Virus record (IMG/VR): IMGVR_UViG_3300009002_000016
Coordinates: 1 to 33,655 of that record
DNA: 33,655 nt
Strand: one strand, 5' to 3'
Origin: a virus
Shown: positions 9,878 through 30,523 of the stretch, piece after piece
How the letters are laid out: every line of letters starts with the position of its first letter
Numbering within the stretch: position 1 is the stretch's first letter
The notes under the pieces: model-generated
Seen by the model: only the letters and a program-made list of their open reading frames with translations
Told to the model about the DNA's origin: nothing
Databases searched by the model: none
Translations under genes and position numbers: made by a program

Positions 9878-10063
9878 ATGATGAGATATGGAATGGAAGA
9901 TTTAGCAGGACTAATTGTATTAATGGGTTTATCACTTATACTTGGAGTAGTAATTGCAGCTACTTCTGTTCAAGGTACTTGGAGATTAGATGCGGCAAAA
10001 ACAGAATGCGCTCAGTTTAATCCAGATAATGGCCATTTTCAATGGATTGAGATTTCAGAATAA
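9878..10063 (+). CDS. small membrane-anchored protein, 61 aa
   Basis: One hydrophobic helix at about residues 9-29 (LAGLIVLMGLSLILGVVIAA) followed by a short polar tail. Start could be the ATG at 9878 or 9881. It overlaps the next gene by one base. Function unknown. Confidence 0.6.
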   Translation: MMRYGMEDLAGLIVLMGLSLILGVVIAATSVQGTWRLDAAKTECAQFNPDNGHFQWIEISE

Positions 10064-10218
10064 TGATAGAGTATTGGGTTGTAAAATTTACCAAAAACGA
10101 TAATGATCCACTTCATCAGTATCTTTTTGCTATAGAAAAAGACGCAGAAAGCTTTAAAAAAGATATGGATGAAAGGGGTTATATAACTTCAATTACACGA
10201 AACGAGGAATTTGTATAA
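10063..10218 (+). CDS. uncharacterised 51-aa protein
   Basis: ATG 10063 overlaps the previous TAA (TAATG) and its own TAA overlaps the next ATG. The sequence WVVKFTKNDNDPLHQYLFAIEKD suggests a small beta-rich fold. Function unknown. Confidence 0.6.
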   Translation: MIEYWVVKFTKNDNDPLHQYLFAIEKDAESFKKDMDERGYITSITRNEEFV

Positions 10219-10388
10219 TGGAATATTTAATTGGCTTAGTAACTGTAGTTGGTGTTGGATATACTTCGTATATTATCGGCCTTAAAGAAGGCGGCGCTAA
10301 AATGATTGACTCTTTAGAATACTTAGGTATCATTATTGTAGACGAAGACGATAATGTATGGCCAAATAAACAGTACAATCCTAAATAG
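10218..10388 (+). CDS. small membrane protein, 56 aa
   Basis: N-terminal hydrophobic helix (residues 3-21), then GLKEGGAKMIDSLEYLGIIIVDEDDNV. This layout (helix, GxxxGG, acidic tail) recurs in small marine T4-like phage proteins of unknown role. It is the last gene before the late promoter at 10404. Confidence 0.65.
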   Translation: MEYLIGLVTVVGVGYTSYIIGLKEGGAKMIDSLEYLGIIIVDEDDNVWPNKQYNPK

Positions 10389-10403
10389 TAAGAAAAAAAA
10401 TAT

Positions 10404-10411
10404 TATAAATA
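10404..10411 (+). promoter_or_regulatory. T4-type late promoter before the packaged-protein cluster
   Basis: TATAAATA, the T4 late consensus, in the intergenic gap 39 bases before the ATG at 10451 and with no -35 box. T4 late promoters are read by host RNA polymerase with gp55, gp33 and the gp45 clamp. The following genes look like head proteins, which are late genes, so context agrees. Confidence 0.75.
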
Positions 10412-10450
10412 GTATTGTACATTTACTTAAAGGAGTGTTATAATACAATT

Positions 10451-11815
10451 ATGAAAAGTTTTTTATCACTAGAACCAATCCGAGAAGCAGTTAGACTTGC
10501 TCCTGGACAACTCAAAAAACCTAATGCTAATACTGGAGAAGCTAGAATTGATATTCTAGCCAGACTCATACGAGACGAAAAGCCACTCGAATTAGCAAAG
10601 GGTGGAACCTTTAAAGTAACTGAAATCGAAGATGCCTTAGCTCAAATAGAAATATTTAAGAAGCTTGAAAAACCATTCAATCTTCATGGTGATGGTAAAA
10701 CTATCAGCTCTTCAGATCTTGGTAAAAGCAAAGTTTTTGGCGGGGGTGGTGGAGCCGGAGGCGGAACCAAGAATACTCAGATCACTGAAAGTCATCAATG
10801 CGTTATTTGTCAAGCAATGCTAGACAATGGAATACAATCAGAAGAGTTCTTTATGGATGAAGAAATCTTAAAAGCAGCATATAAAAGAGTATATGTTGAT
10901 GCAACATACGAAGAAATTGCTAGTGTAGAGGATGGTTGGTTTCATTCATCGTATGAATCAGCTAAGCTTCTTGTTAAAGATGGTTATATTAATAAGTCTC
11001 AAACATTCCATAGAAACAGTAAATTGATGAACACTGTTTACGCATACAAAAATGTAGCATATAAAAATTCAGATCAAAAACCAGTTAAAGATGATAAGTG
11101 GAATCCAGGTGATTTTTGGGCTGTTGAAAAATCTTTTGATCTTAAATCTTTAAATACAGATTCTATTGCTGGATATAATAAGTCGTTACTTCAAGCATTT
11201 GTTGATAGGCAATTAGTTGCTATATCACTTAAGCTTGTTAAAAAGAAAGCAAAAGCTAAAGAATATAATGTTAAACTACCACCAGATACTGATGATCATA
11301 AGTTACTAAAAATATTACTTCAAGGCGAAAAACGAGGAACCTTTTGGTCTAACAAAGGTGCTACTATTCTCTTTGACGAAGGTAAATTTGATCTAAGAGC
11401 TGGTTCTGCTGGCGGAGCTATCAAAGGAGAAATTGCACTTAAAACTGCTAGAGGCGGCGGTGCTGGATATGGAATCATGCAAGACGCTTTAAAGCTTGTT
11501 ATGAGAAAGAAAATACCAGAAAATGGTAAAATCAATGCAATGGCAAAGAAAATAGTTAAAGGCGATAAGCGATCTATCGCAATATTTTATAAAATGTATA
11601 GTCATTTCTATAAAAACGAAAGCTATGAAACCTTTGAAAAGGAATTACTTAGTAAAGACGTTTATTGGGTTGGATCTAAGATGGCTTGTCTATATGTTGT
11701 ATACATAGTAGATCAAAACACTGGAACAAAAGCTAATAGATGGCTAACTAAAATTATCAATTATGCTGGATCTAAATCTGAAGACTCTAGCGCATACGTA
11801 AAGGTATACGAATAA
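10451..11815 (+). CDS. large capsid-targeted protein of unknown function (possible nuclease-like fold)
   Basis: 454 residues from ATG 10451; the upstream in-frame TTG at 10415 lies inside the promoter region. AGGAG is present at 10431-10435 but 15 bases away. The leader MKSFLSLEPIRE|AV ends in an IxE|A site like that cut by T4 gp21 protease. A glycine-rich run (FGGGGGAGGG, ~97-106) is followed by HQCVICQAM. The pair WNPGDFWAVEKS and LVAISLKLVKKK resembles the D...xLK arrangement of some PD-(D/E)XK-like phage proteins, a weak match. I expect it to be packaged in the head; its activity is unknown. Confidence 0.65.
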   Translation: MKSFLSLEPIREAVRLAPGQLKKPNANTGEARIDILARLIRDEKPLELAKGGTFKVTEIEDALAQIEIFKKLEKPFNLHGDGKTISSSDLGKSKVFGGGGGAGGGTKNTQITESHQCVICQAMLDNGIQSEEFFMDEEILKAAYKRVYVDATYEEIASVEDGWFHSSYESAKLLVKDGYINKSQTFHRNSKLMNTVYAYKNVAYKNSDQKPVKDDKWNPGDFWAVEKSFDLKSLNTDSIAGYNKSLLQAFVDRQLVAISLKLVKKKAKAKEYNVKLPPDTDDHKLLKILLQGEKRGTFWSNKGATILFDEGKFDLRAGSAGGAIKGEIALKTARGGGAGYGIMQDALKLVMRKKIPENGKINAMAKKIVKGDKRSIAIFYKMYSHFYKNESYETFEKELLSKDVYWVGSKMACLYVVYIVDQNTGTKANRWLTKIINYAGSKSEDSSAYVKVYE

Positions 11816-13056
11816 TGAAAGGATTTAAAAATCAACTAGCTGAAGCCGCAGGAAAGAACACTCATATGATTCATATTGAGGATCTTATTCTTGATGGCGG
11901 AGTTAAGGGAGCGCGCCAAGCTATACTTGCATTGAGATCATTGCGAGATATGCTGTCGGGTAACGCAAAATCTGCAGTAGACGTTACTGTTAAATGGGAT
12001 GGCGCTCCCGCCGTATTTGCCGGAGAAGATCCGTCAGATGGCCAATTCTTTGTAGCAAAAAAGGGTATCTTTAATGCTAATCCAAAGATTTATAAGTCTC
12101 ATGCTGATATTGATGCTGATACTTCCGGCGATTTATCTAAAAAGTTGAAAATGGCCTTTGATTACATTAAGCCACTTGGTGTAAAAGGTGTGATTCAAGG
12201 TGACTTTATGTTTGATAATTCTGACCTTAAAACAGAAAGCATTGGTGGAGTTAAACACGTAGTTTTTCATCCTAATACAATCGCTTATGCCATTCCAACC
12301 GATTCTGCTTTAGCAAAAGAGATTAAAAGAGCTAAGATTGGTATAGTATGGCATACAACATATAGTGGAGCAACGTTCGAAACTATGAGAGCTGAGTTTG
12401 GTAGAGAAATTACACCAAAATTAAAAGCTTCTAAAGATGTTTGGATGGTCGACGCTACGCTATCTGATTTATCTGGCACAGCAACACTAACTAAAAAAGA
12501 TACTGAATTACTTAATGGTAAACTTTCAGCTGCTGGTAAACTATTTAAAAAAATATCTGGATCTACTCTTAAAGAGCTAGAATCAAATAAAGAATTAAAC
12601 CTTGTTATTAATGTATATAATAATAGAAAGGTAAGAGATGGTCAAAGAATCACAGACACTAAGAAGCATGCAATAGGTCTTATTATGTTTGTTAAAGATC
12701 GATATCAAAAGGAAATTGACAAAAGAAGCAGTCAAAAAGGAAAAGACGCGCAAATTGCAAAAAGAGATCAATTGCTTGCATTTTTTGACAAATCTAATTT
12801 AAAAAACTTACAAAACGTGTTTGATTTACAAAATTTAGTTGTAGATAGCAAATTAATTATTATAAATAAACTAAACGGTTTAAACAAAATTGGTACTTTT
12901 GTTAAAACTAAATCCGGATTTAAGGTAACCAACCCTGAAGGTTTTGTTGCAATAGATCGTATGGAAGGTGGTGCAGTTAAGCTTGTTGATCGATTAGAAT
13001 TTTCTACTAATAACTTCAGCAAAGATATTATTAAAGGTTGGGACAATCCTAACTAA
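11815..13056 (+). CDS. capsid-targeted ligase-like nucleotidyltransferase
   Basis: 413 residues, start overlapping the previous stop by one base. Leader MKGFKNQLAE|AAG has an LxE|A site. After it, motifs of the covalent nucleotidyltransferase (DNA/RNA ligase, capping) fold appear in order: VKWDGAP (nucleophile candidate Lys60, motif I), VIQGDFMF (near residue 130, motif III position), NPEGFVAI (Glu375, motif IV) and VKLVDR (Lys389, motif V). Ligases use the Lys to form a nucleotidyl intermediate for sealing nucleic acid. The III-IV distance is long for a minimal ligase. Similar phage proteins carry only DUF names (I recall DUF6267), so activity is inference. Confidence 0.6.
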   Translation: MKGFKNQLAEAAGKNTHMIHIEDLILDGGVKGARQAILALRSLRDMLSGNAKSAVDVTVKWDGAPAVFAGEDPSDGQFFVAKKGIFNANPKIYKSHADIDADTSGDLSKKLKMAFDYIKPLGVKGVIQGDFMFDNSDLKTESIGGVKHVVFHPNTIAYAIPTDSALAKEIKRAKIGIVWHTTYSGATFETMRAEFGREITPKLKASKDVWMVDATLSDLSGTATLTKKDTELLNGKLSAAGKLFKKISGSTLKELESNKELNLVINVYNNRKVRDGQRITDTKKHAIGLIMFVKDRYQKEIDKRSSQKGKDAQIAKRDQLLAFFDKSNLKNLQNVFDLQNLVVDSKLIIINKLNGLNKIGTFVKTKSGFKVTNPEGFVAIDRMEGGAVKLVDRLEFSTNNFSKDIIKGWDNPN

Positions 13057-13074
13057 ATGGAACCGAGGATAAAA

Positions 13075-13461
13075 ATGAAATCATTTAAGGAACACGAAGC
13101 AGAACTATCTGAAGATAGTGGCGATTTTTCAGAAGCTATGTCACTTGCACATAGAATGAAAATGAAAGCTAGCTTCAGAAAAAATAAAGCTAAAATTGCT
13201 CTAGGTAAAAAGAAAGCAGCAAGAAAATTAGCATCTCCAGAAAAACTTAAATCACGAGCAACTAAAAAGGCTCGCGACATCATGATTCAAAAAATTCTTA
13301 AAGACAAGAAGAAGGGTGATCTATCATTTGCTGGCAGAGCTGGTATTGAAAAGAGATTAGCATCTAAAAAAGGAGCAATCGCAAAGATTGCTAAAAAGTT
13401 ACTACCGGCAATTAAGAAAGCTGACAGGGCTAAACTAAAAAGTAAAGGTGGTGACAAATAA
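13075..13461 (+). CDS. very basic capsid-targeted protein, probable internal head DNA-binding protein
   Basis: 128 residues. ATG 13075 is chosen since GAGG (13065-13068) is 6 bases upstream; an earlier in-frame ATG at 13057 would add only a few residues. MKSFKEHEAELSE|D and GDFSE|AMS give leader-like sequence with protease-like sites. The rest is extremely rich in Lys, Arg and Ala (KNKAKIALGKKKAARKLAS; KKAIAKKLLP-like helices), as in DNA-packing proteins. A related family is common in marine T4-like phages. Probably packed with DNA inside the capsid. Confidence 0.7.
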   Translation: MKSFKEHEAELSEDSGDFSEAMSLAHRMKMKASFRKNKAKIALGKKKAARKLASPEKLKSRATKKARDIMIQKILKDKKKGDLSFAGRAGIEKRLASKKGAIAKIAKKLLPAIKKADRAKLKSKGGDK

Positions 13462-13462
13462 A

Positions 13463-14650
13463 ATGGAATTTAAGAGTTTTAGCGAATATTTAACTGAAGC
13501 TAAAGGCGAAGTATACTTCGTTTTTGGTAGATTTAATCCACCAACTTCAGGTCATGAGAAACTTTTTGACAAGCTAAAGAAAACTGCTGGTAGTAATCCT
13601 TATCGAATATATGGTTCAAAATCGCAAGATGCTAAAAAGAATCCTTTATCGTTCAAAGAAAAAATAAAATTTTTACGTAAAATGTTTCCAAAGCATGCTC
13701 GTAGTATTATGGCTGACGCTGATGTTAGACACGTTATGGACATTGCTACTAAATTATATGACCAAGGTTATACCTCAGTAACTATGGTCGCAGGCTCAGA
13801 TAGAGTTAAAGAGTTTGATACTCTTCTCAATAAATATAACGGTGTCGATTCTAGGCATGGTTTCTATAATTTCGAAAATGGTATTAAAGTTGTTTCAGCT
13901 GGAGAAAGAGATCCAGATGCTGAAGGCGTTGCTGGTATGTCAGCTTCGAAGCTAAGAGCATTTGCTTCAGATAATGATTTAGAAAACTTTACAAAAGGAA
14001 TGCCTAAAGGATATAAAGATTCAAAAGCATTATTCAATGCAATTAGAAAAGGTATGGGACTAAAAGAAACTCATATGCATCGTAAGCATGTTGAACTAGA
14101 ACCTGTATCAGAAAAAAGAGAACAGTTTGTTGAAGGTACTCTTTTTAAAGAAGGCGATGAAGTTGTATTAAAGGAAACAAATCAAATTGGTGTTATTAAA
14201 AGATGCGGCACTAACTTTTTAGTTGTCGAATTTGGCGAATGGAAAAAAAGAGTTTGGTTAGATGATGTAGAACATTTAGATGAAAAGAAATATACTGACA
14301 TGGATTCTAAAGAAAAAGCAGCATATAATAAACCAAGACCTGATGCACCCGAAAGCCAACATACAAAGAATTTTAAAAAGAAGTTTGGTGAAATGAAAAG
14401 CTTTTCACAATCATTAGAAGAAGCTGATGCTAAAGCAGCTCTTAAAAAGAAAGCTGAAAAATCAGGCATGCCTTATGGTATCCTAAAGAAAGTATTTGAT
14501 CGTGGCTATGCTGCTTGGAAAACAAGTCATAGACCAGGAACAAATCCAACTCAATGGGGATTAGCTCGAGTTAACTCATTTACAACTAAATCATCTGGAA
14601 CATGGGGCAAAGCTGATAAAGATCTTGCCGCAAAGGTAAGAGGAAGCTAA
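13463..14650 (+). CDS. capsid-targeted HxGH nucleotidylyltransferase fused to KOW-like and DUF5824-like domains
   Basis: 395 residues from ATG 13463. Leader MEFKSFSEYLTE|AKG (LxE|A). The enzyme domain has GRFNPPTSGH (HxGH-type site, residues 22-31) and MSASKLR (159-165), matching NMN adenylyltransferase/cytidylyltransferase motifs (ISSTxIR). A short beta domain (GDEVVLKETNQIGVIKRC) follows, then from ~321 a C-terminal domain with AWKTSHRPGTNPTQWGLARV, typical of DUF5824. A second leader-like MKSFSQSLEE|ADA starts at residue 311, and FVE|G at 224, so protease could separate the domains. NMNAT-like activity would make NAD; the substrate is unproven. Confidence 0.7.
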   Translation: MEFKSFSEYLTEAKGEVYFVFGRFNPPTSGHEKLFDKLKKTAGSNPYRIYGSKSQDAKKNPLSFKEKIKFLRKMFPKHARSIMADADVRHVMDIATKLYDQGYTSVTMVAGSDRVKEFDTLLNKYNGVDSRHGFYNFENGIKVVSAGERDPDAEGVAGMSASKLRAFASDNDLENFTKGMPKGYKDSKALFNAIRKGMGLKETHMHRKHVELEPVSEKREQFVEGTLFKEGDEVVLKETNQIGVIKRCGTNFLVVEFGEWKKRVWLDDVEHLDEKKYTDMDSKEKAAYNKPRPDAPESQHTKNFKKKFGEMKSFSQSLEEADAKAALKKKAEKSGMPYGILKKVFDRGYAAWKTSHRPGTNPTQWGLARVNSFTTKSSGTWGKADKDLAAKVRGS

Positions 14651-14886
14651 TGAAATCATTCAAAGAACAATCAAATTTAGATGAAGCTCCACTAGTAATG
14701 GATGATTTAGATATGGTTGATACTCTATTTAAAAAGATTAAAGAAGATATGTATAAAGCAAGACGTCAAAAGAAATCAGAAAAGAATTGGCCTACATTAC
14801 AAATACTGGCTAAACTTGCGGGTTATGGTATTACTAAGAAAGGTCAAAAGGATAGCAAATCGTTTAGGTATGATTTAAAGAAATGA
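14650..14886 (+). CDS. small capsid-targeted protein, 78 aa
   Basis: Leader MKSFKEQSNLDE|AP ends in an LxE|A protease-like site. The remainder (YKARRQKKSEKNWPTLQIL...KKGQKDSKSFRYDL) is basic. Starts on the previous stop (TAATG) and overlaps the next gene by 4 bases (ATGA). No enzyme motif. Likely an internal head protein by leader and position. Confidence 0.65.
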   Translation: MKSFKEQSNLDEAPLVMDDLDMVDTLFKKIKEDMYKARRQKKSEKNWPTLQILAKLAGYGITKKGQKDSKSFRYDLKK

Positions 14887-15122
14887 AAACTTTTGGACAA
14901 TACTTTACTGAAGGTACAGGTAAAAGCGAACCTTGGGAAGATGGATTTAAGCGTAGAGTAGTAAAAGCTACAAGCCCAGAACATTTAGATAAGGGTTATA
15001 AGTGGAGAATTAAGGGTAAAGATAGAGATGAAATATCTATTAAGCTTTACAAAAATAAACCAGATTTTGCTGAATTTAAAAAGCAAATGAAGAGAGTCGC
15101 AGGACATGAATTCGGTGGATAA
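14883..15122 (+). CDS. small capsid-targeted protein, 79 aa
   Basis: Leader MKTFGQYFTE|GTG: MKTF opening and ExG site, with Phe in place of the usual Leu/Ile. The body (WEDGFKRRVVKATSPEHL...) is basic and lacks known motifs. It overlaps its neighbours by 4 and 17 bases. Function unknown; inferred head cargo. Confidence 0.65.
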   Translation: MKTFGQYFTEGTGKSEPWEDGFKRRVVKATSPEHLDKGYKWRIKGKDRDEISIKLYKNKPDFAEFKKQMKRVAGHEFGG

Positions 15123-15783
15123 CTTTAAACAACACTTTGATTTAATGGAAGGTGTAAATGATCCTTCTATTTTTAAGGCAGTATTTCTAGCAGGTGGACC
15201 AGGAAGTGGTAAATCATTTGTTGTAGGTAGAACAGCTTTACAGGCATTAGGATTTAGATTAATTAACTCTGACGATGCTTTTGAAAAGGGTTTAACGAGA
15301 GCAGGACTTACTGCTTCTCCAGAAGACATTGCATCAGCTCAAGGTCAAGCTATAAGAGCTAAAGCTAAAGCTCTTACTGGTAAAATTATGCAAAGGGCTT
15401 TACAAGGTAGAATGGGTATTGTTATTGATGGTACCGGTAAGGACTACGCTAAGATTAAAAAGCAAGTTGATATGTTAAGAGAAATTGGCTATGCTGTTCA
15501 TATGATATTTGTTAATACAGATTTAGAAACTGCATTAGAAAGAAACAAAATGAGACCTCGATCGATAGAAGACAGTTTAGTTACTAAAATGTGGAAAGAG
15601 GTTCAAAAGAATATTGGTAAATTTCAAGGATTATTTAGAAATAGATTAATCATTGTTGATAACTCTAAAGGTTCAGATATCGATAGTCAAACAATTGGAG
15701 CGTTTAAAAGAATAAAAACTTGGGCTGCTAAAGCTCCAGAAAATGCTATTGCTGTAAGATGGATAAAGGGGCAGAAAAAATAA
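15106..15783 (+). CDS. capsid-targeted P-loop kinase (zeta-toxin/polynucleotide-kinase-like)
   Basis: 225 residues. Leader ends FDLME|GVN (LxE|G). Walker A GGPGSGKS at residues 30-37, then LINSDDAFE, GIVIDGTG as a Walker B-like strand, and the lid-type RNKMRPRS. This is the AAA_33/zeta-toxin group of small-molecule, nucleotide or nucleic-acid-end kinases. It lies three genes after the ligase-like protein, so an end-healing partner is possible, but a zeta-like sugar-nucleotide kinase is equally compatible. Overlaps the upstream gene by 17 bases. Confidence 0.75.
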   Translation: MNSVDNFKQHFDLMEGVNDPSIFKAVFLAGGPGSGKSFVVGRTALQALGFRLINSDDAFEKGLTRAGLTASPEDIASAQGQAIRAKAKALTGKIMQRALQGRMGIVIDGTGKDYAKIKKQVDMLREIGYAVHMIFVNTDLETALERNKMRPRSIEDSLVTKMWKEVQKNIGKFQGLFRNRLIIVDNSKGSDIDSQTIGAFKRIKTWAAKAPENAIAVRWIKGQKK

Positions 15784-16160
15784 TGCATAGTTTTTTAGAA
15801 CATATTGAAGAAAGATTTGGTATCTACGAAGGTCAACATGTTCCTTTAGAACAACCTATGATAGAAATAGATGAAGCTGCTGAACCTGAGTTAAATAAAC
15901 CTAAAAGGTCTAGTGGTAAAAAGAAATATGTAGTTTACGTTAAGAATCCTAAAACTGGTAACGTAAAGAAAATAGAATTTGGCGACGAAAAGGGTGGTTT
16001 AACATCAAAAATTAATAATCGTGATGCTGCACGTAATTTTGCTTCTCGACATAATTGCGATGCTAAAACTGATAAAATGAAAGCAGGCTATTGGGCGTGT
16101 CGCCTCCCGAAGTATGCTAAGGACTTGGGGCTTAAAGGTGGTGGATCTTACTTTTGGTAA
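15783..16160 (+). CDS. capsid-targeted DUF5872-like protein
   Basis: 125 residues from ATG 15783, which overlaps the kinase stop; an in-frame ATG at 15759 lies inside the kinase gene and would push the leader inward. Leader MHSFLEHIEERFGIYE|G (IxE|G), plus a second site IDE|A near residue 31. The C-terminal domain (KYVVYVKNPKTGNVKKIEFGD ... RDAARNFASRHNCD ... AGYWACRLPKYA) is a conserved phage and giant-virus domain of unknown activity with paired Cys residues. Likely head cargo or a maturation factor. Confidence 0.7.
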   Translation: MHSFLEHIEERFGIYEGQHVPLEQPMIEIDEAAEPELNKPKRSSGKKKYVVYVKNPKTGNVKKIEFGDEKGGLTSKINNRDAARNFASRHNCDAKTDKMKAGYWACRLPKYAKDLGLKGGGSYFW

Positions 16161-16419
16161 ACCGTATTGGGAAGATGGCGAGGTAAGAACCTTCGATCCA
16201 TCGATCGAAGATGCTGAATACGTTTGGCACAGAGATCATGAAGACCGGGAAATAGAAATTTTAGAAGGCGAGGGTTGGCAAATTCAATTAGAAAGATGCT
16301 TACCATGGCTATTAAAAAAAGGTATGGTGTTTGATGTAAAAAGACATGAATATCATAGATTAATTAAAGGTGTAACACCATTAAAATGTAGGGTAATAAA
16401 ACATGACAACGGCAAATGA
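16114..16419 (+). CDS. cupin-like small phage protein
   Basis: Up to 101 residues. The start is uncertain: ATG 16114 overlaps the previous gene by 47 bases, and in-frame GTGs at 16138/16141 are alternatives. The sequence VWHRDHEDREIEILEGEGWQ ... LPWLLKKGMVFDVKRHEYHRLIKG has the HxD, E and distal H spacing of a single cupin barrel and resembles a small protein of marine T4-like phages. No capsid leader is present. Function unknown. Confidence 0.65.
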   Translation: MLRTWGLKVVDLTFGKPYWEDGEVRTFDPSIEDAEYVWHRDHEDREIEILEGEGWQIQLERCLPWLLKKGMVFDVKRHEYHRLIKGVTPLKCRVIKHDNGK

Positions 16420-16702
16420 ACAAAGAGCTGCACAATCTGCTAGACTAGATAGAATTGAAGAAAAGATCGATAAACTATCTGACGCTATAATTTCATTAGC
16501 CCGCGCTGAGGAAAAAATTGCTACTATGGCAGAATTTGGTAAACAACAAGGGGAACAAATATTAACTCTTATAAATAGAGTTGATAAGTTAGATCAAGTC
16601 GTACGCGAAAACGCGGCGACAGTAAACATTATTAACAAACTATTCTGGATAGTAATCGCGGCAGCCGCCACAGCTATCACAGGAATGCTTTTCATACAAT
16701 AG
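16403..16702 (+). CDS. coiled-coil protein with C-terminal membrane anchor (XhlA-like, possible holin)
   Basis: 99 residues. A long amphipathic, heptad-like region (residues ~5-75, ARLDRIEEKIDKLSDAI...INRVDKLDQVVRE) is followed by one hydrophobic helix at ~80-97 ending at the C-terminus (LFWIVIAAAATAITGMLF). This is the layout of XhlA-type proteins that help form lysis pores. It sits in the head-protein cluster about 2.6 kb before the spanin and lipase genes. A membrane-tethered structural role is the alternative. Confidence 0.55.
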   Translation: MTTANEQRAAQSARLDRIEEKIDKLSDAIISLARAEEKIATMAEFGKQQGEQILTLINRVDKLDQVVRENAATVNIINKLFWIVIAAAATAITGMLFIQ

Positions 16703-16713
16703 GAGAAACTAAT

Positions 16714-17646
16714 ATGAGACTTAATGATAAACAAACCTTAAGCATTGCTGCGGCCGTTGGCAATGTGCTTGAAGGTAAAACAAAAAAGGAAGAAGCAAAA
16801 TATCCACACGATATGTTTCATCCAGAAACTGGGGAAAAGGAAGTAGCTAAGGACGAAGCTGATCATAAAGCTCTTGCTAAAAAAGGCTATACTCACGAAA
16901 AACCAGAAGTCGAAGAAGCCGGTGAGCCTAAAGCTAAAGGCGAAAAAGAATTTAAAGGTAAACATACCGTTAAAAAATCTGGTGAAAAAGAAGATGGTTC
17001 AGTAGTTAAGGAAGAAGTAACTATTTCAATTACCGAAGCTAAGCTTAAAGCTGGTAAAGGTAAAGCTAAGATCGACATTGATCATGAAGGCGATGACATA
17101 AAGGCTACTGAAAAGAAATTTAAAGTAAAATTTAAGAAAACTAAAGATGGTTTTGATCTTTCTGGACAAAAGAAAGACATTTTAGCTTATTTGCAATCAA
17201 ACGAGTATGATATGGATGCAGAAGATATCGAAGACCTTTTCCCAGAACTAATGGAAGATGTCAAAGCTGAAGAGAAAATCGAAGAAGGTTTCTCTAAAGC
17301 TCAGATTAAAAAGGCTGTAGAAATGGCTCTTAAATCAGATGGTAAAATGACTCCAGTTGCAAAAAAGATCGAAAAAATTAAAAAGGGATTGAGTAGCCAT
17401 AAGGAAGTAGCTGCAGCGTTTCAATTAGCTAACGAAGAAGTTAGTGAAGAAGTAGTAGCTGAAGCTTACGCTATGAACGAAGCTAAGTCTAAGATGGAAG
17501 AAGATAAAGAAAGATATCAGAAATTCTTTAAATCTGCTTTGAAAAAGTTTGGAGTAGATTCTCCAGCTCAACTTAAAGGCGATAAAAAGAAAGAATTTTT
17601 TGATTATGTCGATAAAAACTATGAGGCTGATAACGAAGAGGACTAG
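16714..17646 (+). CDS. highly charged Lys/Glu-rich protein with several protease-like sites (scaffold or internal head protein)
   Basis: 310 residues, AGGAG 8 bases before the ATG. Almost entirely Lys, Glu, Asp and Ala, with sites resembling gp21 protease targets along its length: VLE|G (~19), SITE|AK, KIEE|GF and VAE|A. T4 scaffold/core protein gp22 is likewise rich in charge and cut into peptides, so a prohead core role is plausible. The end (FKSALKKFGVDSPAQL...FFDYVDKNYEA) is a compact helical module also seen in marine phage proteins. No catalytic motif. Confidence 0.65.
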   Translation: MRLNDKQTLSIAAAVGNVLEGKTKKEEAKYPHDMFHPETGEKEVAKDEADHKALAKKGYTHEKPEVEEAGEPKAKGEKEFKGKHTVKKSGEKEDGSVVKEEVTISITEAKLKAGKGKAKIDIDHEGDDIKATEKKFKVKFKKTKDGFDLSGQKKDILAYLQSNEYDMDAEDIEDLFPELMEDVKAEEKIEEGFSKAQIKKAVEMALKSDGKMTPVAKKIEKIKKGLSSHKEVAAAFQLANEEVSEEVVAEAYAMNEAKSKMEEDKERYQKFFKSALKKFGVDSPAQLKGDKKKEFFDYVDKNYEADNEED

Positions 17647-17659
17647 TTATATATAATAT

Positions 17660-18031
17660 ATGATGAAAATATTTGACAAGCTTAATAGTAGGAATTTTGA
17701 ACTCTATGCGTCACAGCATTATAATAATCCAGAATGTTGTGACGTAGAAGAGTTTAAAGAAGATTTAACACGGTTTAAGTATCTTAAACGATTACTTAGG
17801 CGATATGAACAATATGGAGATCTTCAAGAAAGACTTATATTAAACCACATTATTGTATTATATAATGTGTTTGGTATAGAAGCCGCTAATAGAATGATGT
17901 GGTTTAAAGTAGAACCTGAACATTATACTATTTTAAAAACTTTCTTGATATTCTTAAATTATTTACCAGAAGATTCACGGGTAGAAATACCATTGGATCA
18001 AAAAATAATAAACAAACTGAGAGAACTTTAA
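17660..18031 (+). CDS. conserved T4-like phage protein (DUF7207-like), 123 aa
   Basis: Start at ATG 17660 or 17663. IFDKLNSRNFELYASQHYNNPEC followed by FKYLKRLLRRYE is a recurrent pattern in marine T4-like phages, where it is a small, helical protein of unknown role. It starts on the previous operon's end and overlaps the next gene by one base. No capsid leader. Confidence 0.7.
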   Translation: MMKIFDKLNSRNFELYASQHYNNPECCDVEEFKEDLTRFKYLKRLLRRYEQYGDLQERLILNHIIVLYNVFGIEAANRMMWFKVEPEHYTILKTFLIFLNYLPEDSRVEIPLDQKIINKLREL

Positions 18032-18624
18032 TGAGCGTAGTATCAAGAACAGCAGATTTATTTTATGCCTTTAGATTCCTAAAGTTATTAGTTTCGTCTT
18101 GGGATAAAACAGATGCTTATGAACTAGGCATTATTGACGCTAATGGTAATGTTCTTAAGAAAGCTAAAGATCGAAAAACTCCACAAGAAAAATCAGCATA
18201 CACGGTTTTTCATAGACTAGTATTTAATGTAAAACGTCTACTTAATAAGTTACCATTTGGTCAAACTAAACTAGCATCGTACGCATCAGCTTTATTTTTA
18301 ATTAAAGAAAATACAGGTCTTACTGATGATGAGATTAGAAACATATTAAACGATGTATTTGACGATTTAGAAGAAACAATTGATATATCTGAAAGCGCTT
18401 CATGGTTTGATAAGAATAATTTGTTATCACCCGGAACATATACATTAGTTCAAGATATTGCCTCTCCAAACACCGGTGAAGTAATCGCTGGTATAAATAC
18501 TAAGGTAAAGGCTATTGATTTTACAGAAGCCTATGGAGAAATATTCGGCTTAAACGTATACCAAGTGGAACACGTTTTAACTAAACAAAAAATACTAGTT
18601 ACTAGTACGGATTTAAAAAGATGA
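18031..18624 (+). CDS. conserved marine T4-like phage protein, 197 aa
   Basis: Soluble. The N-terminal half (KTDAYELGIIDANGNVLKK, YTVFHRLVFNVKRLLNKLP) and the C-terminal LNVYQVEHVLTKQKILVT are blocks I recognise from cyanophage and pelagiphage proteins of unknown function. No leader or enzyme motif. Its place among head cargo genes suggests a role in head assembly or DNA ejection, but nothing in the sequence proves it. Confidence 0.7.
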   Translation: MSVVSRTADLFYAFRFLKLLVSSWDKTDAYELGIIDANGNVLKKAKDRKTPQEKSAYTVFHRLVFNVKRLLNKLPFGQTKLASYASALFLIKENTGLTDDEIRNILNDVFDDLEETIDISESASWFDKNNLLSPGTYTLVQDIASPNTGEVIAGINTKVKAIDFTEAYGEIFGLNVYQVEHVLTKQKILVTSTDLKR

Positions 18625-18830
18625 AAAATTTTAAAGATATGTGGGAAGACGCAGCAGCAAATTCAGTAGCATCGGGTGGTGTATCTATGCCAGCGGATGC
18701 TGTTAAGAAAAAGAAAAAGAAAGATCTATACGATGGTAGAACCAAAGCAGGCCGTAAATTCGTAGAAAGAATACTAGCTAGGCGCAAAGCAGCCGAAGCA
18801 AAAAAGGAAGCAAAAAATGAAAACGTTTAA
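18621..18830 (+). CDS. small basic capsid-leader-like protein, 69 aa
   Basis: MKNFKDMWE|DAAANSVASGG resembles the capsid leaders of its neighbours, though the site is WE|D rather than LxE|A. The rest is a Lys/Arg-rich tail (KKKKKKDLYDGRTKAGRKF...RRKAAEAKK) like a DNA-binding peptide. ATGA overlap upstream, 14-base overlap downstream. Confidence 0.6.
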   Translation: MKNFKDMWEDAAANSVASGGVSMPADAVKKKKKKDLYDGRTKAGRKFVERILARRKAAEAKKEAKNENV

Positions 18831-19257
18831 AGATATTAGAGAAGCTATGTCAACTTGGACAGTGACTGTTCAGAAACCAGTTAACAAGCTTAAGAAAGGC
18901 GATAAGCAAGTTGTTAAAGCTCGTTCAGGTTTTGAAGCAATTAATAAAGCTATGAAGTTGTGGAAAGATCCTGCTCTTAAAGCTGCATCAGCAGATTCAT
19001 TTAAGATTACTAAAGAAGGTCTAGACGAAGCTAGTGATCCTAAAGTTGCTAAAGCTGTCCAAGGACTAAATGATCTTGGCAATAAAATGAAAGGTAAAGA
19101 CGCTAAACAAGTTAAGCGAATTGAAGGATTATTTCGTAAAGGTAATAAAAAAGTTATGCAAGGCGCTTTAAGAGCTCTGGATACTGATCTTAGAGATCAG
19201 ATTGCAGATGTTTTAGAACCTCAGGGCTTTTGGAAAAATGGTGTAGTAGACTTCTAA
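18817..19257 (+). CDS. capsid-targeted basic protein, 146 aa
   Basis: Leader MKTFKDIRE|AMS (IxE|A) is among the closest to the T4 internal-protein leader MKTYQEFIAE|A. A second site, GLDE|ASD (near residue 70), divides the protein into two helical halves, the second Lys-rich (KGKDAKQVKRIEGLFRKGNKKV). No enzyme motif. Last of the leader-bearing genes. Confidence 0.65.
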   Translation: MKTFKDIREAMSTWTVTVQKPVNKLKKGDKQVVKARSGFEAINKAMKLWKDPALKAASADSFKITKEGLDEASDPKVAKAVQGLNDLGNKMKGKDAKQVKRIEGLFRKGNKKVMQGALRALDTDLRDQIADVLEPQGFWKNGVVDF

Positions 19258-19273
19258 TATAGGTTAAAATTAT

Positions 19274-19666
19274 ATGAGTAAAATATTGATTGGAATTATT
19301 GTTGCTATGGGTTTTACTGGTATGATGTATTACCAATTTTCTGTTGTACCAATGAAGAACAAGCTGGAAGAACAAACAAAGGTTATTCTAGCTCAAGATC
19401 TAAGAGATCAAGAACAAAAGGCCGCAATCGAGGCAATTCAAAGTAACTTGGAAAAGACTTCTAATTCTCTTAGAGGTCTTCAAGTACAAAATCAGCAATA
19501 CGAAACACAAATGTCTGAATATATGGATATATTCCGTAGGCATAACATTGCTAAGCTCGCAAGCGCTAAACCTGGATTGATGGAAACACGAATTAATAAT
19601 GCAACAAAGGAGGTGTTTGATGGTATCGAAGCAGATAGCAATCGTATTAGCTCTCTTAATGATTAG
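19274..19666 (+). CDS. inner-membrane spanin candidate (Rz-like)
   Basis: 130 residues: short N-terminus, one hydrophobic helix (residues ~4-22, ILIGIIVAMGFTGMMYYQF), then a long coiled-coil-prone periplasmic part (KNKLEEQTKV...QSNLEKTSNSLRGLQ). This is the layout of i-spanins. The outer-membrane partner starts inside its 3' end in another frame, the usual overlapped spanin arrangement. Spanins fuse the inner and outer membranes in the last lysis step, so the host should be Gram-negative. Confidence 0.75.
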   Translation: MSKILIGIIVAMGFTGMMYYQFSVVPMKNKLEEQTKVILAQDLRDQEQKAAIEAIQSNLEKTSNSLRGLQVQNQQYETQMSEYMDIFRRHNIAKLASAKPGLMETRINNATKEVFDGIEADSNRISSLND

Positions 19667-20111
19667 TGGGTGTAGTCTATTACAACAACCACCTCGTGAA
19701 GTCGAAATAATAACTAAACCAATTAAGATTGATATTGTACAACCAGTATTACCAAGATCTTTAAACTTAAAAGAACCTAAGTGGTACGTAGTTTCAGACA
19801 CTAAAATCATTGAAAATTGTTTAAAGAACGAAGAAGGCAAGTCTGATTGTAAGCTTGGTAGAGAAGATCTATACCCTGAAGGATATACATACTTTGATAA
19901 GTTTATTGATGATATTAAAAAAATGCACGGAGGCGATACAGTATTTGTTGCTATGAGCGTTGCTGATTATGAGCTAATGTCTTATAATACACAAGAAATA
20001 AAAAGATATATTAATCAGCTCGGTGAGGTGATAGTTTACTATAGAAACGTAACAATAGGTAATGAAGATGCTGGAGCAGTGGAAATTAAAGTGGAGAAAG
20101 AAGATGAGTAG
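19620..20111 (+). CDS. outer-membrane lipoprotein spanin candidate (Rz1-like)
   Basis: 163 residues from ATG 19620, supported by the strongest ribosome binding site in the window (AAAGGAGGTG, 19605-19614). The signal peptide MVSKQIAIVLALLMISGC ends in a lipobox with Cys18, so the mature protein is a lipoprotein. Proline-rich stretch after it (QQPPREVE, KPIKIDIVQPVLPRS). The start lies 47 bases inside the i-spanin gene. It is longer than most Rz1 proteins, and a different lipoprotein function is possible. Confidence 0.7.
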   Translation: MVSKQIAIVLALLMISGCSLLQQPPREVEIITKPIKIDIVQPVLPRSLNLKEPKWYVVSDTKIIENCLKNEEGKSDCKLGREDLYPEGYTYFDKFIDDIKKMHGGDTVFVAMSVADYELMSYNTQEIKRYINQLGEVIVYYRNVTIGNEDAGAVEIKVEKEDE

Positions 20112-20859
20112 AATGAAAGACGATATGACGGTATGGCAAAGAGCCGAAGTTGCTGCTAAGTTATCAGCAATTGCCTATATGAATCCTAAGCCGGCTGACA
20201 CGGCATGTAAAAAATTAGGATTTGCTTCGGGTAAAATTATTAGTAGAGATGGAGCTGAAGTACTCATCGCAAAAGATAGAAATGATTTATGGTTTGCCTT
20301 TAGAGGAACAGAGCCCTCTAAGTTAAATGACGTAATGGCTGATCTTAAAGTTATTAAAAATTCAGCAGTAGCTGGAGGTAAAGTCCATGGAGGTTTCCAA
20401 GAAGAAGTCGACGATGTATGGATGGATATTGTAAAAGAACTAGAACATAATGACCAACTAAAGGTAAGAAAAGATGTATATTTTACTGGGCATAGTCTGG
20501 GTGCTGCTATGGCTACTATTAGTGCCACACGTTATGAACCTCAAGAACTCTTCACATTCGGATCACCGAGAGTCGGAGGTCAACGATTCATCAAGAATAT
20601 AAAATGCGATCATTATAGATTTATGAATAATAATGACATTGTATGTAGAATCCCACCAGCATGGCTAGGATTTAGACATCATGGAGAAATGATTTATTTT
20701 AACAGATTCGGCGAAAAGGCTCTTAAGCCGACTTGGGCTGATACATTTTATGGCATTATAGAATCATGGAAAAGATGGAAATTCTTTGATGGCGTTGTAG
20801 ACCATGGAATGCCTAACTACGTTAAAGCTATTAAAAAACTAGCTAAAACGGAGAAATAA
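20104..20859 (+). CDS. class 3 lipase
   Basis: 251 residues from ATG 20104 (GGAGAAAG upstream; an earlier in-frame start at 20062 lies within the spanin gene). The alpha/beta hydrolase triad is visible: GHSLGAA with Ser131, NNNDIVCRIPP with Asp178, and DHGMPNY with His234 (family form DHSMxxY). WFAFRGT supplies the oxyanion-side strand. No signal peptide. It follows the spanin pair by overlap, so attack on host membrane lipids during lysis is likely; packaging in the virion is the alternative. Confidence 0.85.
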   Translation: MSRMKDDMTVWQRAEVAAKLSAIAYMNPKPADTACKKLGFASGKIISRDGAEVLIAKDRNDLWFAFRGTEPSKLNDVMADLKVIKNSAVAGGKVHGGFQEEVDDVWMDIVKELEHNDQLKVRKDVYFTGHSLGAAMATISATRYEPQELFTFGSPRVGGQRFIKNIKCDHYRFMNNNDIVCRIPPAWLGFRHHGEMIYFNRFGEKALKPTWADTFYGIIESWKRWKFFDGVVDHGMPNYVKAIKKLAKTEK

Positions 20860-29948: not shown

Positions 29949-30161
29949 ATGACAATGCCAAATGAAAGAAGATGGGCAATCAAAAATACAGAAATCTTTT
30001 TAAGAGACTTGATGGACCCAAAGAAAACTCCACGTGTACCTAGTGCTATAAGAAAAGAAGCATACCGTTGCCTGAGGCATTATCCAGGCGATTATCATAT
30101 GGAACAAGCAAAAATAGAAGCACCAAAAATCTTTGGTGATTGGGATAGTGAATTTAAATGA
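29949..30161 (+). CDS. BPSL0761-like small protein
   Basis: 70 residues. MTMPNERRWAIKNTEIFLRDL, then IRKEAYRCLRHYPGDYHM, follows a pattern seen in bacterial BPSL0761-type proteins and marine phages. Function unknown. Confidence 0.65.
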   Translation: MTMPNERRWAIKNTEIFLRDLMDPKKTPRVPSAIRKEAYRCLRHYPGDYHMEQAKIEAPKIFGDWDSEFK

Positions 30162-30523
30162 ACTTAATTAGAAATGCAATACAAACGCCAGATGGTACTA
30201 TTTTAGAATCGACCCATCGTCACGATTATAAGACACATACTGATGCCAATGGTAAGACTTATATGGTCGATGGTGGACTTTCATATCTTCGAAGATCAGT
30301 TCATAAAGATCAAAAAGATCTTTCTTTATACGATAATGAATCACACAAAGTTCAAGCATCAGTTTTAAAGTGGGGGACTTATGGTATTAATGGAGATCAG
30401 CCATTAAGCCATATAAGTATTAGTGACATGGATACTGATCATATTGGAAACATATTAGGAATGGGCCGTATAAGTTCAGTTCACAGAAAGTGTATGGAAA
30501 ACGAATTAAAAACTAGGAGATAA
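30158..30523 (+). CDS. conserved T4-like phage protein, 121 aa
   Basis: RNAIQTPDGTILESTHRHDYKTH, then TYMVDGGLSYLRR and WGTYGINGDQPL, are conserved blocks in marine T4-like phages. His/Asp-rich near the N-terminus. Overlaps the previous gene by 4 bases (ATGA). No known activity. Confidence 0.7.
   Translation: MNLIRNAIQTPDGTILESTHRHDYKTHTDANGKTYMVDGGLSYLRRSVHKDQKDLSLYDNESHKVQASVLKWGTYGINGDQPLSHISISDMDTDHIGNILGMGRISSVHRKCMENELKTRR

Follow-up and report, generated by a model that had tools for sequence, protein, structure and literature searches.

We analyzed a stretch of viral DNA of 33,655 nucleotides (nt) from IMG/VR record IMGVR_UViG_3300009002_000016, a 33.7 kb fragment of a T4-like phage that we call the window, and within it a gene array at positions 10,451 to 19,257. 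Taken as a whole, this array is best explained, with high probability, as a group of late-expressed genes for virion cargo, the products of which carry T4-type capsid-targeting leaders and are cut and injected. That is, the leader would carry a protein into the prohead core during assembly, and a prohead protease of the gp21 type would cut it after [LI]xE. Once mature, the basic protein would remain with the DNA in the head and then enter the next host together with it. The cargo would consist of an NMNAT-like nucleotidylyltransferase, a ligase-like DUF6267 protein, a P-loop kinase and small basic proteins. The leader and the late promoter, together with the basic charge of the proteins, the head genes of T4 type in Phage C48C1, the nearest complete relative, and the virion proteomes of relatives, lend good support to capsid targeting of the array. 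That the array proteins are targeted, cut, injected and active early in the host is our inference, with injection and action ahead of phage gene expression carried over from T4.

Leader sequences of the array genes

The original prediction placed leaders ending in LxE or IxE on ten genes, which we name by their start positions. All ten starts are ATG codons in frame within real open reading frames (ORFs). In six genes the named start is the first one listed; the others lie inside longer ORFs, by 36 nt at 10451, 18 nt at 13075, 15 nt at 13463 and 24 nt at 15783. The motif [LIVMF]xE followed by Ala, Gly or Ser occurred within the first 22 residues in 8 of 15 block genes versus 1 of 42 genes outside (Fisher p = 3e-5), in a gene list that we picked from the ORF tables. 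The eight are 10451, 11815, 13463, 14650, 14883, 15106, 15783 and 18817, with leaders of 9-16 residues. Thus the prediction held for eight genes and partly for 13075, which has LSE/D and FSE/A in place of the motif (a slash marks the predicted cut), and failed for 18621, which has no such site. The predicted leader form MK[ST]F proved too narrow, since 11815 begins with MKGF, 13463 with MEFKSF, 15106 with MNSVDNF and 15783 with MHSF. The sole outside gene with the motif (30158-30523) is otherwise not leader-like.

All array genes lie on the plus strand. Cargo 1 (10451-11815; phrog_1462) encodes 454 amino acids behind the leader MKSFLSLEPIRE/A (10451-10486), and Cargo 2 (11815-13056; Pfam PF19782, E 1.3e-101) is the DUF6267 protein, with the motif KWDGAP and the leader MKGFKNQLAE/A (11815-11844). 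Cargo 3 (13075-13461; phrog_23027) is a very basic protein of 128 amino acids starting with MKSFKEHEAELSEDSGDFSE/A (13075-13134), the mature isoelectric point (pI) of which is 11.3 if FSE/A is cut; an alternative in-frame start is possible at 13057. Cargo 4 (13463-14650), with the leader MEFKSFSEYLTE/A (13463-13498), is the NMNAT-like nucleotidylyltransferase fused to a DUF5824 domain. In Pfam, PF01467 and PF19141 both exceed their cut-offs (CTP_transf_like, 24 bits versus a curated cut-off of 21), and the protein also matches phrog_3041 and phrog_395. A second leader, MKSFSQSLEE/A (14393-14422), lies inside this ORF ahead of the DUF5824 domain. Two small basic proteins follow, Cargo 5 (14650-14886; MKSFKEQSNLDE/A) and Cargo 6 (14883-15122; MKTFGQYFTE/G). 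Cargo 7 (15106-15783; MNSVDNFKQHFDLME/G) is the P-loop kinase, with AAA_33, zeta-toxin and polynucleotide-kinase-like matches that include the polynucleotide kinase family phrog_505. Cargo 8 (15783-16160; MHSFLEHIEERFGIYE/G; phrog_7595) and Cargo 9 (18817-19257; MKTFKDIRE/A) are basic, and so is the doubtful cargo protein at 18621-18830, which begins with MKNFKDMWED and has no LxE site. Of the unrelated cargo domains originally proposed, the nucleotidylyltransferase and the P-loop kinase were found, whereas Pfam gives DUF5824 in place of DUF5872. NCBIfam returned only matches far under the cut-off, for 15106 and 13463. Sequence searches of solved structures gave none for these two proteins and a single row at E 0.3 for DUF6267, and PADLOC matched 0 of 6 proteins.

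Scanning with a frozen leader profile

No near DNA match for positions 10001-20500 was found among 50,697 phage records. At the protein level DUF6267 gave 440 matches, mostly in cyanophages, the top listed being those of Phage C48C1 (56 percent), Melnitz and DLP6. We built a position profile from the leaders of DUF6267 homologues only and then froze it, with a threshold of 7. The training set was 74 of 79 distinct leaders from IMG/VR loci and DLP6, five being dropped as truncated or oddly long. Shuffled N-termini passed at a rate of 0.25 percent at score 7 and about 0.1 percent per start at score 9.

Six of the 354 ATG starts of the window passed, every one of them in the array: 11815 (21.4), 13075 (14.5), 14883 (13.0), the internal start at 14393 (12.2), 13463 (10.5) and 10451 (9.0). 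The score of 11815 is not independent, because homologues with the same leader are among the training sequences, and the match of 13075 puts the site at EAE/L, not at LxE. The search of related genomes with a leader model, proposed together with the original prediction, agreed with it. In the complete C48C1 genome 8 of 1430 starts matched, seven of them, DUF6267 included, in the region of the syntenic array (57.3-71.8 kb) and the eighth an internal start elsewhere. A stretch of the cyanophage S-SM1 gave 2 matches in 349 starts, its cytidylyltransferase among them. The five matches among 1408 starts in T4 were the internal protein IPI, gp61.1, Inh and two internal starts, which we take as chance.

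The T4 protein gp61.1 (locus L008, 18966-19130, minus strand) starts with MKTFKEFIKE/DMVAG and scores 11.9, which makes it a candidate packaged protein of T4; we met no description of it as such. The score of Inh is 9.0.

Late promoter

A T4-type late promoter box, TATAAATA, lies at 10404-10411 on the plus strand, 47 nt ahead of the 10451 start. A box within 120 nt upstream was present in 36 of 41 distinct regions with a 10451 homologue, compared with 63 of 803 other ORFs and 5 percent of shuffles, and 35 of these 36 boxes were at 27-77 nt. The late promoter predicted ahead of the cluster is therefore supported, because the position of the box is kept upstream of the homologues. In C48C1 there are 25 boxes, of which 7 lie at 57.2-68.4 kb and several others precede head and tail genes, and the array stretches of S-SM1 and of the cyanophage S-SCSM1 contain two exact boxes apiece.

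The boxes in the window alone were rejected as promoter evidence, since their total is no higher than in shuffled DNA (7 versus 6.7). A second peak past the DUF6267 start (152 boxes at +1 to +2 kb) was set aside, because the box of the window there (12861) falls within codons 349-352, two residues of which (I350 and N351) are invariant.

Spread of the leader over unrelated proteins, and their charge

In 151 IMG/VR loci, 404 of 17447 ATG starts scored at least 9, all of them on the DUF6267 strand (404/15042 versus 0/2405 on the opposite strand). These 404 count DUF6267 itself and copies from near-identical loci; the distinct other proteins number 171, and 36 of them start at an ATG other than the first of the ORF. 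Clustering of their mature parts by BLASTP gave 34 clusters, and 31 after we dropped DUF6267 variants, a cluster buried in a longer ORF and an internal methionine of ribonucleotide reductase. Fourteen of the 31 have at least two members and show no BLASTP links to one another at E 1e-4. Seventeen are singletons, six of which score at least 14, and part of these seventeen are probably chance. The largest cluster unites several families through fused chains. When 20 cluster representatives were compared with Pfam, PAP2 was above the cut-off in one, three matches were below it, a fifth was the ribonucleotide reductase of the dropped cluster, and the remaining fifteen had no match at E 0.01. These results indicate that the same leader stands on otherwise unrelated proteins, as had been predicted.

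The cargo is also basic. Mature cargo in the loci had a median pI of 9.7, and 90 percent (n = 166) had a pI of at least 9, compared with 44 percent of 1226 other ORFs, the controls being all plus-strand ORFs of at least 100 amino acids, genes or not. In the window a pI of at least 9 was found in 9 of 9 leader proteins versus 12 of 48 others.

In three loci (L075 723-1955, L080 7064-8305 and L091 1481-2719) the DUF6267 stretch has one in-frame stop codon; sequencing error, a frameshift and a broken copy are all possible.

Leaders inside fused chains

In ORF 13463-14650 the NMNAT and DUF5824 parts are each headed by a leader. The loci contain 69 ORFs with this fusion, with 45 distinct junctions. 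Another 16 ORFs have the DUF5824 motif in a different setting; among 12 distinct ORFs of the latter kind, 10 have a leader-like start by eye. An earlier fusion motif, which gave one fused and one separate ORF, was superseded as too strict. A strict leader motif was present at 23 of 45 junctions versus 4 of 1061 control windows, and it does not detect the junction type of the window itself; a looser motif was present at 38 of 45 junctions versus 239 of 1157 controls. Of the 23 strict junction motifs, 14 have no methionine in the preceding six residues. For an internal leader that lacks a start codon, a protease site is a better fit than an additional start. The internal leader in the 13463-14650 chain would probably be cut in the head, giving two separate proteins.

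Other joined chains were also found. In Melnitz a single chain of 650 amino acids combines, by eye, NMNAT, DUF5824 and a 15783-like domain, its C-terminal part being similar to Cargo 8. A chain of 722 amino acids in DLP6 combines, also by eye, NMNAT, a 13075-like basic part and a DUF5824-like part. NMNAT is joined to a P-loop kinase in locus L089, and the profile phrog_455 combines DUF6267 and NMNAT.

Prohead protease and the cleavage site

The protease gp21 of T4 is reported to cleave after L/I-X-E, and mutants of the internal protein IPIII are described as showing that targeting depends on residues 4 and 7, and processing on residues 8 and 10 (PMC9026906). Four divergent DUF6267 proteins all keep F4 and E10; residue 8 is Leu or Ile in them, and residue 7 is variable. 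In the training leaders, by eye, the [ILV]xE-type site is constant and the other residues vary.

The genes for portal, head maturation protease (as annotated), scaffold and capsid lie close together in C48C1. Its capsid protein has, by eye, FLTE where T4 gp23 has FLTE (residues 62-65), the gp23 propeptide being given as 65 residues (PMC5694885). Scaffold proteins are rich in [LI]xE sites, with 17 versus 7.5 in shuffles for C48C1 and 16 versus 5.9 for T4 gp22; no such excess over shuffles was found in the 10451 and DUF6267 proteins.

Virion proteomes of relatives

When published tables or record notes were set against the sequences, homologues of the nucleotidylyltransferase were among the virion-detected proteins of four cyanophages, S-SM1, S-SCSM1, S-SZBM1 and S-CREM2, with leader scores of 10.2, 11.0, 0.0 (MRFRQFIIE/A, missed by the profile) and 15.2. 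The purified S-SM1 virion is reported to include the citidylyltransferase T4-GC190 (PMC3037559). In the S-SM1 record T4-GC190 starts with MKKFSAFLNE/A and adjoins T4-GC71, the DUF6267 gene. The virion proteins in the S-SCSM1 record include gp089, gp282, the NMNAT gp281, gp280, gp279 and gp277, all encoded between helicase/mazG and primase/nrdA. NMNAT (11.0) and gp089 (7.5) pass the profile and the other four fail; the eight matches in the ATG scan of the whole record are NMNAT, gp089, gp030 and five internal or unannotated starts. In S-SZBM1, proteins 140 (the nucleotidylyltransferase), 139 and 136 are in the proteome table, and the leaderless DUF6267 (141) and 142 are named nowhere in the main text of the paper.

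For S-CREM2, Table 3 of the proteome study lists 52 virion proteins. The profile matched 3 of 219 annotated coding sequences, namely ORF13, the APH-like kinase ORF14 and ORF154, the last being homologous to 13463 (35 percent over 277 columns). All three were virion-detected, compared with 52 of 219 overall (p = 0.013; p = 0.0007 outside the structural modules, ORFs 84-147 and 200-219). ORFs 7-11, in the same stretch as ORF13 and ORF14, have no leader and are absent from the virion table. The regular expression R1 matched 8 of 219 coding sequences, of which 5 were virion-detected, and is post hoc, having been written after the S-CREM2 N-termini were inspected; only the profile was frozen beforehand. 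By eye, a SAM hydrolase has a leader-like start as well (MKDFDSFLEE), as does the Cas9-like ORF12, where it is shifted inward (LRFASFMAE/A). The proteome authors leave open whether enzymes of this kind are genuinely packaged, and a T4-type capsid-targeting sequence would account for such packaging.

ORFs 6-15 of S-CREM2 (L164 3837-13331, minus strand) look like a second cargo-like locus, with the SAM hydrolase, the Cas9-like protein, the APH-like kinase and small proteins that are virion-detected, mostly with leader-like starts, and undetected leaderless genes in between. The virion protein gp279 of S-SCSM1 (L167 14490-14699) ends in a leader-like C-terminus, ...KKKRTFKEFLEYIE, which recalls the C-terminal processing of the T4 protein Alt.

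Weighing the explanations

Several observations weigh against our explanation. Five of the ten named genes are under the profile threshold (14650 with 6.5, slightly so; 18817 with 3.5; 15783 with 1.6; 18621 with -3.7; 15106 with -8.0), which limits the support, and the profile itself is imperfect, missing IPII and IPIII (3.05 each) as well as Alt of T4. At the residue behind the cut, the 74 training leaders have Ala in 42 cases, Ser in 13, Gln in 11, Glu in 6 and Asn in 2, and never Gly. No prohead protease gene was identified in the window, a fragment. The S-SCSM1 protein gp030, in spite of its strong leader (14.4), is missing from the listed virion proteins. Array virion proteins without a leader are gp282, gp280, gp279 and gp277 of S-SCSM1, 139 and 136 of S-SZBM1, and 155, 156 and 160 of S-CREM2; the leader is thus not necessary for presence in the virion. 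DUF6267 of S-SM1 and S-SZBM1 also lacks it. Internal or unannotated starts make up 3 of 5 matches in S-CREM2 and 5 of 8 in S-SCSM1 when all ATG codons are scanned; the scan of S-CREM2 adds three such starts, one of which, inside the DNA polymerase gene, scores 19.4. We lowered our confidence slightly because these scans show more false positives. The authors of two of the proteomes allow for carry-over of enzymes from CsCl purification. The original idea of a packaged, injected protein set stands in part: capsid targeting is well supported, with nucleotidylyltransferase homologues in the virions of four relatives, injection and early action would follow the example of T4, and the five genes under the threshold, one of them the siteless 18621, qualify the idea.

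The leader might target the prohead core and be cut there, and the proteins might then serve head assembly or DNA condensation without being delivered to or active in the host. Most of the cargo is basic and of unknown family, and in T4 only the lysines of internal proteins are described as contacting DNA phosphates, charge effects on packaging having been proposed (PMC3012670). However, enzyme domains such as the nucleotidylyltransferase and the P-loop kinase, or the SAM hydrolase, APH-like kinase and Cas9-like protein of S-CREM2, are atypical of core proteins, and the internal proteins of T4 are reported to be injected and to inhibit restriction (PMC12373910). We therefore regard this role as unlikely. 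Less likely still is that highly expressed late genes share this N-terminus for translation start or membrane binding, with no relation to the capsid, and that virion detection reflects contamination. The carry-over mentioned for two proteomes and the leaderless array virion proteins would agree with this, but neither the constancy of the [ILV]xE-type site nor the leader-like motif inside fused chains, with no methionine in the six residues ahead of it in 14 of the 23 strict cases, would be expected of such a feature, and in S-CREM2 the profile selects virion proteins outside the structural modules while the leaderless ORFs 7-11 are undetected.

It is also conceivable that the likeness is due to chance or to common ancestry of a few paralogues, the motif being short and shuffled sequences passing at the rates given above. 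The complete absence of high-scoring starts from the opposite strand, the 171 distinct proteins other than DUF6267 and the recurrence of 14 clusters unlinked by BLASTP make this highly improbable. We keep to the explanation of the array as probably late-expressed, injected virion cargo.

Comparison with known systems

The array leaders resemble the capsid-targeting sequences (CTS) of T4 IPI, IPII and IPIII, which are N-terminal leaders of 10-20 residues with an aromatic residue 4 and LxE or IxE ahead of the cut, on mature proteins that are mutually unrelated and described as basic (PMC9026906). T4 Ip1-3 are reported to be injected and to block type IV restriction, and they are three genes in two loci that encode small inhibitors (PMC12373910). 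In contrast, the window has about nine genes that lie together in a single array, with replication genes on one side and nrd genes on the other; enzyme domains are among the products, and one chain is a fusion with an internal leader. Enzymes as cargo and fused chains retaining an internal leader-like site would be new beyond T4.

The comparison with T4 made originally is right for the internal proteins and wrong for Alt, the sequence of which has no leader of this type. Alt is likewise an enzyme packaged with DNA and processed by gp21, but it is reported to be cut N-terminally at ITE-6 and a second time near the C-terminus (PMC5694885), and the profile does not recognize it. The nucleotidylyltransferases or cytidylyltransferases of S-SM1, S-SCSM1, S-SZBM1 and S-CREM2 have a homologous domain with the leader (profile-weak in S-SZBM1), and in the first three phages the gene lies between helicase and nrdA. 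They differ in that the accounts available to us report them as virion enzymes without a packaging signal, and in that the window phage belongs to a different, uncultured lineage. Similarly, SPN3US and giant phages of the phiKZ type have ejection proteins in the head whose propeptides are removed by a relative of gp21 that cuts after glutamate (PMC5694885, PMC9026906); these propeptides are mostly far longer than the T4 CTS, with one comparable case of 20 residues described in SPN3US (PMC5694885). We found no description of capsid-targeting leaders in cyanophage-like T4 relatives in the literature searched, which held few subscription papers and no supplements and in which polyproteins were not targeted.

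Structure and possible function of the cargo

The AlphaFold2 model of the 10451 protein has a mean predicted local distance difference test score (pLDDT) of 87.4, with values below 50 only at residues 1-12 and 99-105. Residues 1-12 are the predicted leader, and we counted their low score in an otherwise well-folded model in favor of a leader. Foldseek found nothing at E 0.001 or better, and the best VIA-align hit was AcrF1 (Z 3.5 over 64-69 residues), which is no proof of a new fold.

The DUF6267 model has a pLDDT of 72.4, with residues 1-18 below 50. In VIA-align the first 15 rows are all RNA or tRNA ligases (Z 5.8-6.5, under 8), eight of them being one Naegleria enzyme, and DnaK rows rank not far under the ligase rows. 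The best Foldseek hit is T4 RNA ligase 1 (E 0.09). In the KWDG motif K60, D62 and G63 are invariant across 27 rows. These matches do no more than suggest a ligase-like nucleotidyltransferase fold.

For nicotinamide-nucleotide adenylyltransferases of jumbo phages, which in some cases are fusions with a P-loop kinase, a role in NAD counter-defence has been proposed (PMC7824862). Because DUF6267 is ligase-like, the 15106 protein has kinase matches (phrog_505) and NMNAT is present, we tentatively suggest, as a possibility that we still consider doubtful, that the array is a kit for repair and counter-defence carried in the phage head, made partly as polyproteins cut at internal leaders, and that it would provide RNA-end repair and NAD resupply at DNA entry and act before host defences that cut tRNA or deplete NAD can win.

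Neighboring genes

The array block is flanked by uvsX, a DnaB-type helicase, thymidylate synthase and nrdA/nrdB. Within it, in 16403-18624 on the plus strand, are four leaderless genes with acidic products, 16403, 16714, 17660 (phrog_407) and 18031 (phrog_18642). The idea that the acidic 16714 protein is a shredded scaffold was rejected, since it has only 3 [LI]xE sites versus 3.9 expected. Right behind the array lies a leaderless lipase-like ORF (20062-20859; pI 9.5) with, by eye, a GHSLGAA motif. The ORF at 25051-25476 matches phrog_447 ("NAD synthetase") and homing endonuclease families too, and its annotation looks doubtful.

Implications

A gene behind such a short, readable leader is predicted to encode virion cargo, which offers a sequence test for delivered effectors across the cyanophage-like T4 relatives. 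For conserved genes such as T4-GC190 the leader further suggests action at DNA entry, and it points to polyprotein cargo.

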